Shown here: positions 3,221 to 39,542 of the stretch, in pieces
Numbering within the stretch: position 1 is the stretch's first letter
How the letters are laid out: every line of letters starts with the position of its first letter
Position numbers and translations under genes: made by a program
The notes under the pieces: generated by a model
Databases searched by the model: none
What the model was told of the DNA's origin: nothing
What the model saw: the letters and a program-made list of their open reading frames with translations, nothing else
Assembly: GCA_028710135.1 (NCBI GenBank)
Contig: JAQUSS010000011.1
Span: 1-39,542 of the forward strand
Direction: 5' to 3'
Length of the DNA: 39,542 nucleotides
DNA from: Gemmiger sp.
GTDB taxonomy: Bacteria > Bacillota > Clostridia > Oscillospirales > Ruminococcaceae

Positions 3221-3236
3221 ATTTTTGGACATAAGA

Positions 3237-3334
3237 ACAGGGGCGCTGGGGGCTTTCCCCGGCTGAGATTGAGGCAAATTGCAGCCTCAGGTCGCCTAGA
3301 ACCTGATCCGGGTAATGCCGGCGTAGGAAGTTTG
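3237..3334 (+). ncRNA. TPP riboswitch (THI element) aptamer
   Basis: Contains the conserved aptamer blocks in order: GGGGCGC, GGCTGAGATTGAGGC, then ACCTGATCCGGGTAATGCCG and GCGTAGGAAG. These are the pyrimidine- and pyrophosphate-sensing cores of the TPP aptamer. It lies in the leader of thiT and is followed by an intrinsic terminator, so bound TPP should stop transcription. The ends are approximate. Confidence 0.95.
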
Positions 3335-3356
3335 GCCATACAGTCAACACGCTTTT

Positions 3357-30095: not shown

Positions 30096-30433
30096 TGCTT
30101 TCGCCTCCTAATATAAATTTGTTGCCTTAGGCGAGCCGATAAATCACACACGCTTCCGGGTGTTCAACCATTTTGTACGAGAAAATCCGGTGAACCGCGC
30201 ACCCGCAGTTCAGCCGGAGAGAATCATTACAAAGCTGGCGGAAATTGGTCCGGCCCGCAGACAGCAGTACCGTACGTATCCCTTTGCATCCGTAATTCTT
30301 TCGCCCGGTTCTAAGATCGGACATACTCCGCGGAAAAACCCGTACCACCTATCGGCGGCGCGGCAACCTCCCGCATCAACGCATATCGTGGCTTGTAATA
30401 GAACGCCTGTTCCACACAAGCCGTTCGCAGCCG
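30096..30433 (-). promoter_or_regulatory. Long 5' leader of the S10 operon
   Basis: About 340 nt lie between the predicted start point and rpsJ without a credible gene. Hairpins seen: GGCTTGT/ACAAGCC with an inner GAAC/GTTC (30390-30422), and TCCGG-TGAAC/GTTCACCGGA followed by TTTTCTC (30186-30218), which looks like a weak attenuator. A 14-codon reading frame (MVEHPEACVIYRLA) exists near the end but lacks a ribosome binding site. This fits an r-protein autoregulatory leader, but the ligand is unknown. Confidence 0.5.
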
Positions 30434-36423: not shown

Positions 36424-38709
36424 TTATATCCCAAAGGTGGCATAAAGGCCATACCCTTGTAGCAAAACGAAGGCGCTTAACACCGTTACGCCAAATATGG
36501 CCCCCCGGGCGGGGTCTTTTTTGGCGGCAAAGGTTTTGGTTTGGCCTACCAGCAGCAGGGCCAGGGGCAGCACCGGCAACCAGTACCGGCCCTGCACCCC
36601 AAAGATGGTTTGGTAATTGATGGGCGTCCAGGTGAGGGCCGCCAAAAACGATAGCCCCACCACCGTGAAGAATACCAGCCCCACGCACCAGCTGCCCCGC
36701 CTGCCCAGCTTAGGGCGGGCATCGGCGGTGGTTAGGGGCAGCGCGGCGGCCACCAGCGCCAAAACCAGCCCCACCCCCAGCACCCAGCTTACCAAAATGG
36801 GGTAGACGATGGGTTCGCCCAGGGCGGTGCCCAGCACCCCCTGTAGCCAGAGCGCGCCCTGGCTTTCGGCACTGCGCAGAAGCAGCTTGACGGTGCCCGG
36901 CAGGTTGCGGCAGATATACCCCACCGAGTAGGTGTAGATGGAATCGCCATTTTCCTGGATGCTGCCCACCAGGTCCTCGGGGGTAAGGCCGCCCCACATA
37001 TGGGTAAGCTTGTAGAGCGCCACCGGCAGGGCCACCGCCGCGCAGAGGGCCAGCGCCCCCCAAAACAGCTTTTTGCCCCGCGCCGTGCGGCGGGCCAGCG
37101 CGTAGGCGCCGCCCAAAAGGGCTGCCGCCACCGCCAAGGCCAGGGCCGCACGGGTAAGGCCCACGTTATCCACATCCCGCGTGGCGTAAAGCAGGGCCGA
37201 TAAATTGGTGGCCAGCCACCCGGCCACGGCCACCGCCAGCACCCCCAGCTTAAGCCACCGGCCACGGCGGCGAAGCTGCGGGGCATTCTGCCCGCCCCAG
37301 CCAAGGTGGGCATCCGGCACCAGCAGGCAAAGCAGGGCCACCGGCAGGTAAATGGCCTTGAGCGGGCCAATGAACAGCGCATACCCCACCAGCAGCAGCC
37401 GTTCGCCCCGGTGGGCGGGGCGGCCGCGCAGGCTTAGGCAAAGGGCCGTGTAGCCAAAGGCAAGCCCCAGCACCACACCATCGCCCGAAAGGCTGGCCCC
37501 CAGCTGGGTGGCCATAGGCAGCAGCGCCACGGTGGCAAACAGCCCGCGCCAGGCCACCGGGGCCAGCGCCACGGCCATCGCCGCCAACAGGGTGTACACC
37601 GCCAGGCTGCCCAACCGCCCCAGCAGCAGCATACCATAAAAGCCCAGCCCCAACACCCGTGCCAGGGCAATGCCCAGGGTTTGGCCGGGGTAAAGGCGGT
37701 AACCATTCTCCGCCACTGCCACGGTGGTGGCGGTGTCGCAGGCCGGGGCCGCGCCGGTATCCCCCAGGTGCTCCAGCATGGTTTTGTAGGCAAAAATGCC
37801 CACCGCGCCGGTATCACTGCGGAAATACGGGGCATCGCAGGCTCGTGCCTGCAAATATAAAGTACCGTCTTTTTCCACCGCCGTCTGTTGCCCCAGCAAC
37901 GTGCTTGCCTGGCGGTAGCTGGCGGCAAGGTGGGTATATTCGTCCGGGGCCACCAGTGGCGGGGTAACCAGGGCAAACGCGCCGCCCAGCAGCAGCGCCT
38001 CCACCGCAAACACCGCCACCAGCCCGGCCCGCCGCCAAAACAGCAGCCCGCACCCCAGCGTAACGGCCAAAAACAGCAGCACCCCCACCACGGCCGATAG
38101 CGTGCTCGCCCAATTGCCCGAATAATCCACCACATACTGTAGCGCGGCGGTGGCATTTTGGGGTTGCCCGGCCACGACCAGGGGCAGCCCGGCCACCGCG
38201 CCCTCGCTGGCCCAAAGGCCAAGCGGGTGGCCCGCATCCACCGGGTCGGCCTGGTACTGCAAAGCAAGGGTCAGCTCGGCGGCAGCCGGGGCGGTGTAGG
38301 GTGCCGCAAAAATAACTTCCGCAAAGGTATTGTCCTTCAGTTCCAGCAGGGGGCGCTGCCCGGTGGCAACCGCGCTGCCATCCGCCGTGTATAGCGTGGC
38401 ATAAAGCGCCCCGCCCGAAAACGCATGGTCGTAGGTGGCAATATCCAACCGCACGCCATACAGCCGCTGCCCCGCCACCACGGGCAGGGTTTGGGTAAGC
38501 CCTGTGGCGAGTGCACTCTCTCCCGCCACGGCGGGCAGGGCGACAATTTGGCTGTAATCGTCGTTTACAATCTCGTACACGGGGGTATTATCCACCCGCT
38601 GGGCAAGGTCAAACCCGGCCCAGGCCAGCACCAGGGCGGCAGCCAGCGCCACCCCCAGCAGCATCAGCAGCGGGCGGTGGGCGGCGCAAAAACGTTTGAT
38701 TGTTTGCAT
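36424..38709 (-). CDS. DUF2142 family multi-pass membrane protein
   Basis: Protein of 761 aa. An N-terminal membrane helix (about 14-33) is followed by a large predicted extracytoplasmic beta-rich domain (about 40-210) and then about eleven membrane helices. TPPLVAPDEYTHLAASYRQ is the characteristic PPDE-type motif of DUF2142, which resembles GT-C glycosyltransferases. A role in cell-surface glycan transfer is plausible but unproven. The start is ATG 38709 with GGGGGC upstream, not the track start, which lies upstream of the promoter. It is the first gene of the operon leading to rqcH. Confidence 0.82.
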   Translation of the reverse strand: MQTIKRFCAAHRPLLMLLGVALAAALVLAWAGFDLAQRVDNTPVYEIVNDDYSQIVALPAVAGESALATGLTQTLPVVAGQRLYGVRLDIATYDHAFSGGALYATLYTADGSAVATGQRPLLELKDNTFAEVIFAAPYTAPAAAELTLALQYQADPVDAGHPLGLWASEGAVAGLPLVVAGQPQNATAALQYVVDYSGNWASTLSAVVGVLLFLAVTLGCGLLFWRRAGLVAVFAVEALLLGGAFALVTPPLVAPDEYTHLAASYRQASTLLGQQTAVEKDGTLYLQARACDAPYFRSDTGAVGIFAYKTMLEHLGDTGAAPACDTATTVAVAENGYRLYPGQTLGIALARVLGLGFYGMLLLGRLGSLAVYTLLAAMAVALAPVAWRGLFATVALLPMATQLGASLSGDGVVLGLAFGYTALCLSLRGRPAHRGERLLLVGYALFIGPLKAIYLPVALLCLLVPDAHLGWGGQNAPQLRRRGRWLKLGVLAVAVAGWLATNLSALLYATRDVDNVGLTRAALALAVAAALLGGAYALARRTARGKKLFWGALALCAAVALPVALYKLTHMWGGLTPEDLVGSIQENGDSIYTYSVGYICRNLPGTVKLLLRSAESQGALWLQGVLGTALGEPIVYPILVSWVLGVGLVLALVAAALPLTTADARPKLGRRGSWCVGLVFFTVVGLSFLAALTWTPINYQTIFGVQGRYWLPVLPLALLLVGQTKTFAAKKDPARGAIFGVTVLSAFVLLQGYGLYATFGI

Positions 38710-38746
38710 AAAGCCCCCGTTCAAAAAATTGTGTTTTCTGCCAGGT

Positions 38747-38775
38747 ATTATACCGCAATACCACCAAAAGAGCAA
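38747..38775 (-). promoter_or_regulatory. Sigma-70-type promoter of the DUF2142-rqcH operon
   Basis: Minus-strand TTGCTC, 17-nt spacer, TATAAT. The start near 38740 leaves a leader of about 30 nt. Confidence 0.75.
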
Positions 38776-38796
38776 CCCGCGCCCCGGCAGGGATGC

Positions 38797-38835
38797 AAAA
38801 AAGGGGTGCGCCCCTTACAGGACGCACCCCTTTTT
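38797..38835. terminator. Bidirectional terminator after the zinc-ribbon gene
   Basis: GGGGTGCG/CGCACCCC is a perfect 8-bp stem with a 12-nt loop. It has T6 on the minus strand and T5 on the plus strand. Confidence 0.85.
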
Positions 38836-38850
38836 GTGTGCAAATTGCAA

Positions 38851-39126
38851 TTAGTTCTGCTTCATCTTCGCAAAGCACTCGCTGCAGTAGACCGGACGGT
38901 CTTCACGAGGCTGGAAGGGAACCTTGCAGGTCTTGCCGCAGCTAGCACAGACGGCGTCAAACATCTGACGCTCGCCACGGGTGCTGTTCTTGCGGGAATC
39001 GCGGCAGGGCTTGCAGCGCTGGGGCTCGTTCTCAAATCCACGGCTGGAATAGAACTCCTGCTCGCCGGCAGTCCAGATGAACTCCTTGCCACAGTCTTTG
39101 CATACTAAAGTTTTGTCTTCGAACAT
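38851..39126 (-). CDS. Zinc-ribbon domain protein with CxxC...CxxC pairs
   Basis: Protein of 91 aa with two cysteine modules. The first has CKDCGKEFIW near residues 9-18 and CKPC near 38-41, like the probable zinc-ribbon (zf-trcl) domain. The second has CASCGKTCKVPFQPREDRPVYCSEC, the CxxCxxCxxC/SSSS-type ribbon. Such proteins are common in Firmicutes and have no known role; nucleic acid binding is plausible. AGAGGAG precedes ATG 39126. Its leader contains a degenerate tRNA-like element starting at the predicted transcript 5' end, which is unusual. Confidence 0.85.
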   Translation of the reverse strand: MFEDKTLVCKDCGKEFIWTAGEQEFYSSRGFENEPQRCKPCRDSRKNSTRGERQMFDAVCASCGKTCKVPFQPREDRPVYCSECFAKMKQN

Positions 39127-39155
39127 AATTGGGTATCTCCTCTTAATTTAGTATT

Positions 39156-39227
39156 TGCCCGCGGAAGGATTTCAACCGACACCTTTGGTGAAAGGACCAA
39201 CGCTCTTAATGTTAAGCTACTGGGGGC
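39156..39227 (-). tRNA. Degenerate tRNA-like element (possible pseudo-tRNA) in the zinc-ribbon leader
   Basis: A 72-nt span aligns to a tRNA. The acceptor GCCC/GGGC pairs, but then has a C-C mismatch and a bulged A. TA is at positions 8-9, and the D-stem GCTT/GAGC is intact. The anticodon stem TTGGT/ACCAA is perfect but encloses only six bases (CCTTTC). The T-stem GTCGG/CCTTC has two mismatches, and its loop reads TTGAAAT, lacking the usual C56. The D-loop AACATTAA lacks GG. No CCA is encoded. An amino acid cannot be assigned. It ends about 30 nt before the zinc-ribbon ATG, so both are probably on one transcript. It may be a decayed tRNA or a tRNA-mimicking leader. Confidence 0.5.
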
Positions 39228-39235
39228 AGATATAT

Positions 39236-39265
39236 ATTTAAGCCAAGTGGCTTAAATTCGGTCAA
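39236..39265 (-). promoter_or_regulatory. Candidate promoter of the tRNA-like element and zinc-ribbon gene
   Basis: Minus-strand TTGACC, 18-nt spacer, TTAAAT. The predicted start is near 39229, almost exactly the 5' end of the tRNA-like element. Confidence 0.5.
39237..39256. promoter_or_regulatory. Perfect palindrome TTTAAGCCA-AG-TGGCTTAAA, candidate operator
   Basis: Nine-bp arms around two bases span the spacer and -10 of the promoter above. The two-base centre makes it better suited to a dimeric repressor than to an RNA hairpin, though it might also act as a weak terminator for the sigma factor gene. Confidence 0.5.
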
Positions 39266-39276
39266 GGTAGGGTGTT

Positions 39277-39542
39277 TCAGCTTCCCTTTAGCTTCCGCCG
39301 TGCCCGTGCCAGGGCATTTTCAGCGGCTTTAGGAGCGCAGCCCAAACAGGCGGCAATCTCGGCAGTGGTATTGCCTGCTACCGAAAGTAGCAGGGCGCGG
39401 CGTTCCCGTGTGGAAAGCTCCGTTTCCATCCGTAACAGGATGGCGGCATATTCCTCCCCAGCAATGGCAATTGCTTCGGGGTCGGGCGCGGTGCGCGCAC
39501 CAGCGGGCGGTGTGCCATGTTGGCCATCGTCCAGTGGCAAAG
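39277..39542 (-). CDS. RNA polymerase sigma factor, SigH-like, C-terminal part (cut by window end)
   Basis: At least 87 codons are visible. LSTRERRALLLSVAGNTTAE and IAACLGCAPKAAENALARAR form a sigma region 4 helix-turn-helix that binds the -35 element. The pattern APKAAENALARARRKLKG matches the end of the sigma-H (SigH/Spo0H, sigma-30) group better than ECF factors. The reading frame is open to the window edge, so the real start lies beyond 39542; the TTG at 39540 in the track is not credible. Non-sporulating gut Clostridia often keep this gene. Confidence 0.75.
   Translation of the reverse strand, partial: LPLDDGQHGTPPAGARTAPDPEAIAIAGEEYAAILLRMETELSTRERRALLLSVAGNTTAEIAACLGCAPKAAENALARARRKLKGS

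Follow-up and report, generated by a model that had tools for sequence, protein, structure and literature searches.

We identify, with high confidence, a conserved and structured leader RNA of tRNA origin that stands before the gene for a small zinc-ribbon protein in Gemmiger sp. The element lies near one end of the window, by which we mean the whole stretch of 39,542 nucleotides that was analyzed, and it fits neither a tRNA gene, in view of its score, anticodon loop and elbow, nor a neutral pseudogene, in view of its covariation. Comparison with relatives established the homology, placement and fold of the element, its covariation, a core of the tRNA type and a 5' edge like that of a pre-tRNA, and the call in the window is based on the Rfam tRNA score, a covariance model (R1) and the presence of the element at the same site in orthologues. 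An earlier note, made from the letters of the window, had described a degenerate, tRNA-derived leader of the zinc-ribbon gene; the Rfam alignment and the recurrence of the same element in orthologues bear this out. The features of the locus are as follows.

38851..39126, minus strand: zinc-ribbon protein, 91 aa, with zf_Tbcl (PF13451) and zf_Tbcl_2/CxxC-x17-CxxC (PF23477, TIGR04272) matches
39136..39144, minus strand: ribosome-binding region AAGAGGAGA of the zinc-ribbon gene, from sequence
39156..39228, minus strand: tRNA-like leader element, with U-1 at 39228, G1 at 39227 and A73 at 39156
39156..39162, minus strand: 3' strand of the acceptor helix (GCGGGCA) with A73, from sequence and covariation; CCA is absent after it
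39164..39180, minus strand: T-arm GUCGG-UUGAAAU-CCUUC, 3 of 5 pairs formed, U54 and A58 kept, C56 lost
39185..39200, minus strand: anticodon-arm remnant, a 5-bp stem UUGGU/ACCAA with a 6-nt loop, from sequence
39202..39217, minus strand: D-arm GCUU-AACAUUAA-GAGC, loop without GG, from sequence
39220..39228, minus strand: 5' strand of the acceptor helix, UGCCCCCAG, of which UGCCC pairs with GGGCA and covaries in relatives
39229..39236, minus strand: A/U-rich linker 5' of the acceptor, with A at -4, U at -3 and C at -2; position -1 (39228) is U
39237..39256, minus strand: hairpin P0, UUUAAGCCA-CU-UGGCUUAAA, with no U-run after it
39277..39540, minus strand: sigH-like sigma-factor ORF, C-terminal part (Sigma70_r4_2); the contig ends inside it

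The element is 73 nt long (minus strand, 39228-39156) and shares its strand with the zinc-ribbon gene. The Rfam tRNA model (RF00005) spans it from end to end (39226-39156, model positions 1-71 of 71) with a score of 25.8 bits, below the curated gathering score of 29, and with E = 0.0013 in a search space of 181 bases only; scored by this model, genuine tRNAs from that genome reach about 65-73 bits. ARAGORN called no tRNA in the window, and an Rfam scan of 39100-39280 matched only the tRNA family, with no T-box or other leader RNA. Elsewhere in the window, we observed a TPP riboswitch (RF00059) at 3229-3346 on the plus strand (64.3 bits) and an S10-Clostridia ribosomal protein leader (RF03136) at 30301-30387 on the minus strand (42 bits). 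With R1, built from 40 seeds that include the window copy, the element scored 61.4 bits (E = 2.7e-17) in a genome-wide search and was the top match in the genome; the next matches reached at most 42.8 bits, and those that were fetched are tRNAs by ARAGORN.

The layout proposed in the earlier note is present in the sequence, namely U8-A9, a 4-bp D-stem (GCTT/GAGC) and a perfect anticodon stem (TTGGT/ACCAA), and the outer acceptor pairs UGCCC/GGGCA are intact as well. The parts that it had listed as missing are indeed absent. The D-loop, AACATTAA, has no GG, the T-loop TTGAAAT lacks C56, so that the pair between D-loop G18G19 and T-loop U55C56 that helps to define a tRNA does not form, and the T-stem GTCGG/CCTTC pairs at 3 of 5 positions. 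The anticodon loop has 6 nt, as against the 7 nt with U33 and a readable anticodon that define a tRNA. A73 is followed by A-rich sequence and 3' CCA is not encoded; its addition by the CCA enzyme would need earlier 3' cleavage. Thermodynamic folding gave z = -1.55 against shuffles, and the minimum-energy fold differs from the cloverleaf. The case for the element is therefore comparative, since thermodynamics alone would not reveal it.

Within the order, Oscillospirales, 12 families have the same element directly before their zf_Tbcl/CxxC zinc-ribbon gene, as do several families that belong to other orders of the Clostridia, and the upstream regions of zinc-ribbon orthologues carry it at the matching place in other genera, families and orders. 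At E <= 1e-12, R1 detected it in 45 of 148 genomes of the order; with two 76-nt matches resembling ordinary tRNAs in one genome (G056) set aside, each genome has a single match, and 12 families are represented. All R1 matches whose location was checked lie just before the zinc-ribbon gene. A different collection of 80 named loci, partly held out in that some loci come from close relatives of the seed species, gave R1 matches of 37-70 bits in 39 loci, all at the leader position, and nothing above 32 bits in the rest of their 206 kb. Members from other orders (L144, L145, L153, L157, L158, L160, L163 and L166, of families f47, f41, f46, f30 and f50) include some that retain the elbow contact and two, L157 and L158, that match weakly. 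Across the phylum, the top R1 matches resemble ordinary tRNAs of 73-75 nt and reach 57 bits, so R1 is not a reliable guide to the element outside the class.

Some relatives exceed the Rfam tRNA cut-off (L025 with 48.8, L072 with 40.7 and L045 with 38.9 bits), and members above this generic threshold would be annotated as tRNAs or pseudogenes. In L189, ARAGORN calls a tRNA-Leu(CAA) at 1500-1573 on the minus strand, yet this is a zinc-ribbon leader with a mismatched anticodon arm, and the call is likely a misannotation in public genomes. A nearest-tRNA comparison for the parent tRNA, limited to 72 tRNAs, gave as its best match a 'tRNA-Leu' that was itself the L189 leader. Among 20 relatives scanned, no Rfam family other than tRNA reached its gathering score over the element. 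Separately, a genuine tRNA-Gly(CCC) occurs just upstream of the zinc-ribbon leader in nine class-level loci of other orders, on the minus strand at L153 1883-1953, L160 1873-1943 and L166 1889-1959, and also in L147, L150, L151, L155, L156 and L158; there, the zinc-ribbon gene is preceded by a tandem of a real tRNA and a tRNA-like element or what remains of one.

The fold itself is conserved across families. In a MAFFT alignment, not fitted to the structure, 86.4% of cells were paired as against 82.1 +/- 0.7 in shuffles, with 0 of 500 shuffles as high; the covariation score was 0.208 compared with 0.132, and double changes occurred in 13 of 20 pairs, compared with 6.1 in shuffles that leave sequence relatedness uncorrected. 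Covarying pairs, which the earlier note had suggested looking for, are thus present, and an unconstrained tRNA pseudogene is contradicted by the 13 compensatory pairs and the 500 shuffles. Shifting the partner by 1-3 columns reduced pairing to 54% or less. Among 54 sequences fitted to the model, 89.8% of cells were paired, and 13 pairs showed 95 double-change cells. Acceptor pairs vary from GC to AU, GU and CG, pairs of the T-stem and anticodon stem vary too, and the D-stem is paired in 98-99.5% across relatives; the acceptor is mismatched at 5-68 and 6-67 in most members. The seeds had been chosen by a TAGCT[T/C]A anchor, which makes those bases invariant by construction in the first alignment (A1). 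RNAalifold recovered only the T-stem from the alignment, so the cloverleaf rests on the named structure and the covariation counts, not on de novo prediction.

These results bear on the possibility that the element is a fossil, that is, a dead tRNA gene in decay whose functionless remnant has survived by chance. The anticodon region is degenerate and variable, as such a remnant would be, and decay is evident inside Gemmiger and Faecalibacterium; the true tRNA-Gly(CCC) upstream in other orders indicates that the site is or was a tRNA site. Against this stand the compensatory changes, which need very long selection and extend over 12 or more families of the order as well as other orders. We therefore regard a fossil as extremely improbable; judged by its distribution in many gut Clostridia, the element is too widely conserved for a random leftover. 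Intact tRNAs were not seen at the leader position of orthologues, where no leader joins a sound anticodon arm to CCA.

The pattern of kept and lost parts is informative. In the 54 members, U54, A58, G53-C61 and G45 are invariant, and U8 is found in 48, A14 in 51 and A21 in 49. The acceptor, D and T stems and the tertiary core are kept in the family, as seen from covariation and invariant positions, with the window T-stem at its 3 of 5 pairs, and the anticodon loop is highly variable in length among relatives; the window copy and almost every other member lack CCA. Because the core and T-loop positions are kept and the anticodon loop and CCA are not, the object under selection looks like the body of a tRNA stripped of the ends that decode and are charged. 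The joint absence of D-loop GG and C56, on which the earlier note had remarked, extends across relatives. Of 12 elements with D-loop GG, 8 have UUC in the T-loop, compared with 2 of the 42 that lack GG (Fisher P = 2e-5, indicative only, as the sequences are related). Both partners are kept in 8 of the 54 relatives, and the elbow contact between G18G19 and U55C56 is lost as a unit.

A tRNA tertiary core that persists without decoding parts is what a protein binding at the elbow or on the side of the D- and T-arms would need, and the leader might therefore be an operator, a tRNA decoy for a tRNA-binding protein, possibly the zinc-ribbon protein itself, with feedback like that of thrS. The protein is small, rich in Cys, Lys and Arg and extremely conserved (42 columns are invariant in the class), as might be expected if it bound nucleic acid, and each genome has a single element, always at the zinc-ribbon gene. 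We found no informative sequence or fold relative of the protein in the PDB, and hence no solved or fold relative that suggests RNA binding. The ribosome-binding site is hidden no more in relatives than with shuffled elements (0.44 versus 0.40 unpaired), which gives no sign of a translational lock, and the pre-tRNA-like AUAU edge described below is left unexplained. On balance, an operator seems rather unlikely. A switch between the D-arm and the Shine-Dalgarno sequence (GCUUAA with UUAAGC) was also considered and rejected, as Shine-Dalgarno sequences did not track changes in the D-arm. Of 245 good genomes from the order, 238 have the zinc-ribbon gene, which is thus nearly universal there. Its nearest named orthologues are those of Gemmiger, and the organism is close to Gemmiger formicilis. 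Our literature search found no paper on this protein family.

Despite its wide conservation, the element can be lost. Most sister species in Gemmiger score 15-19 bits with R1; of those checked, about 62 bits was reached only by G. gallinarum, Ca. G. faecavium, the species of the window and L004, a close relative of it. Conservation inside the genus is 93% and 98% for the two acceptor strands and 79% for the interior, and the element is decaying there toward a plain helix. The earlier note had offered a decaying tRNA and a mimic as alternatives; both descriptions apply, given a fold conserved in many lineages and decay in Gemmiger, and the either/or falls away. Other lineages of the order have a hairpin alone at the same place, for example GCCC-GCAA-GGGC in L131. 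Leaders reduced to hairpins at the acceptor site take several forms (GCCC-AA-GGGC, CCC-CGAAA-GGG, CCTTG-GAAA-CAAGG and GCCC-GCAA-GGGC, in L064, L099, L112, L131 and others). About ten orthologues in which the D and anticodon arms are lost or replaced still hold the T-arm, most of them together with the acceptor (T-arm in 11 of 88, one of the 11 spurious, versus 1.2% in shuffles). The tRNA shape is most likely ancestral and was long maintained, yet it can be replaced; the direction of change is taken from taxonomic spread.

Such reduction invites the view that the leader is passive, a stable helix before the ribosome-binding site that stabilizes or insulates the message, with the tRNA shape a historical accident. 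The lineages that hold just a hairpin (for example GCCC..GGGC) and the drifting interior between conserved acceptor strands in Gemmiger would agree with it. It leaves unexplained why 54 divergent members strictly retain U54, A58, G45, G53-C61 and the D-stem, why partly reduced members keep the T-arm and why U-1 disappears along with the fold. We consider this view unlikely.

The bases before G1 carry a signature of their own. Among the 54 members, U-1 occurs in 50 and A-2, U-3 and A-4 in 41 each, and none beyond -5 is strongly conserved. This consensus recurs, in weaker form, in the 72 tRNAs of the fetched loci (U-1 in 37, A-2 in 35, U-3 in 38 and A-4 in 34; L189 is counted among them, with negligible effect). 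The model R1 takes in -1 and -2 and excludes -3 and -4. The window copy has U-1 and A-4, the leader contacts of RNase P, with C at -2. As U-1 is often able to pair with A73, the junction would move by one base in such cases. In orthologues with a bare hairpin, the base before the helix is U in 1 of 31, an approximate control because helix bounds from minimum-energy folds could hide some paired U-1. Since U-1 drops to this level where only the hairpin is left, the AUAU signature appears to track the tRNA fold and neither the gene nor a promoter.

The earlier note had placed the transcript start at the 5' end of the element, and the AUAU edge could accordingly be read as a -10 promoter box, with the element at the start of the primary transcript. 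In the window, TATAT occurs just upstream, where the eye can also pick out a loose TTGACC/TTAAAT pair. Our results do not support this placement. Conservation is limited to -4 to -1, so that transcription would begin within the acceptor stem, and a conserved -35 box is lacking; a search of 38700-39542 gave no sigma-70 consensus promoter. The stop codon of the sigH-like ORF falls inside the element or no more than 25 nt from G1 in 33 of 50 relatives, where a promoter would have no space, and the element is preceded by P0 hairpins whose sequences are unrelated. Four orthologues (L022, L033, L034 and L077) have a recognizable TTGACA-type promoter, and it sits upstream of the element, with the -10 box ending 122-138 nt 5' of the ATG. 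A promoter at this edge is thus very unlikely.

The gene arrangement points instead to a shared message. The best NCBIfam match of the sigH-like ORF in the window is spore_sigH, at a score below the whole-protein cut-off, as expected of a truncated ORF. Of the 54 members, 50 have a sigH-like ORF that ends just upstream on the strand of the element. Because this ORF adjoins the element and its stop is often within 25 nt, the element is most likely intercistronic between the sigH-like ORF and the zinc-ribbon gene. In the window, a gap of 50 nt separates the sigH-like ORF from the element and holds the 9-bp hairpin P0. Related species have a hairpin of unrelated sequence at the P0 position, such as UUAUGGGUGGCGACCCAUAA in L035; in the window and in orthologues, this hairpin changes in sequence and keeps its position between the sigH stop and the element, with no terminator U-run. 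Some families without the tRNA-like body have a hairpin of the type GCGA..CAGG..CCTG..TCGC in the P0 region.

We favor a function for the element in a dicistron of sigH and the zinc-ribbon gene, as a signal for processing by RNase P, in agreement with the example given in the earlier note, and rate the chances of this reading as about even. Under this proposal, an ancient tRNA-derived domain would have been captured between the sigH and zinc-ribbon genes of Clostridia and retained as a cis element. A dicistronic RNA of the two genes, which we take to be co-transcribed, would carry the element, and the acceptor and T-arm, braced by the core of the D-arm and variable loop, would offer a site like that of a pre-tRNA to RNase P, with the predicted cut just 5' of G(1), after U(-1). 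A 3' hairpin, P0 where present, would remain on the sigH message, and the zinc-ribbon message would gain a defined 5' end within a helix just upstream of its ribosome-binding site, so that the two genes may be expressed at different levels. The element thus probably marks a cut site that splits a shared message in two.

The RNase P reading draws on the AUAU edge, which is like that of pre-tRNA leaders, and on the retention of acceptor and T-arm in partly reduced relatives. RNase P is known to accept hairpins made of an acceptor and T-arm and can also act on mRNAs, and its protein is reported to contact position -4 (PMC11143913). The stack of acceptor and T-arm is found in the family despite the mismatches at 5-68 and 6-67, and it is imperfect in the window copy. 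The 3' RCCA that aids bacterial RNase P is missing from the element, which counts against the proposal. In lineages with short hairpins, RNase P cutting is not expected, and the processing function, if real, would be dispensable or replaced there. We also considered an extension in which the leader would compete with pre-tRNAs for RNase P or another tRNA-handling enzyme and zinc-ribbon expression would report the capacity for tRNA synthesis or processing, with an evolutionary series from near-complete tRNA to bare hairpin in living species; this idea is quite doubtful.

Comparison with known systems helps to place the element. In the E. coli thrS operator, a tRNA mimic in the mRNA leader imitates anticodon arms and binds ThrRS. 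That operator is likewise a tRNA-resembling leader of a protein gene; in contrast, our element has lost the anticodon arm, and its downstream gene encodes no synthetase. The tRNA-like domain of tmRNA and the 3' tRNA-like structures of plant viruses are 3' ends with CCA that are aminoacylated. They too are partial tRNA mimics, whereas the element lacks CCA and runs on into mRNA. To our knowledge, the RNase P sites known in polycistronic mRNAs are not conserved tRNA-derived domains. With tRNA itself (RF00005), the element shares the cloverleaf, U8-A14, A21, U54-A58, G53-C61 and variable-loop G45; it differs in having no usable anticodon loop or CCA, in the usual loss of the elbow and in being a leader between two ORFs. 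The mascRNA of MALAT1 (PMC12016569) is also a tRNA-like domain in a longer transcript, and RNase P cuts that of MALAT1, but it is eukaryotic and lies at the 3' end of a long noncoding RNA, whereas the element is bacterial and lies between coding regions, with cleavage predicted. Works cited in PMC11143913 concern RNase P acting on bacterial polycistronic mRNAs, where an intercistronic cut sets the downstream 5' end, as is proposed here.

Rfam holds no family for the element beyond the generic tRNA, and our literature searches, outside the list of candidates in the human-microbiome study PMC8040213, returned no account of a leader of this kind. Most known mimics of tRNA in mRNAs come from viruses or eukaryotic noncoding RNA, or from isolated bacterial examples like thrS. 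Here, a tRNA-derived cis element is conserved in many families of one bacterial class, is tied to one widespread gene and is partly mistaken for tRNA by standard models. Related genomes show a graded loss of tRNA parts, which makes possible a direct test of which parts are selected. If RNase P does cut the element, it would be a conserved natural mRNA target of this enzyme.
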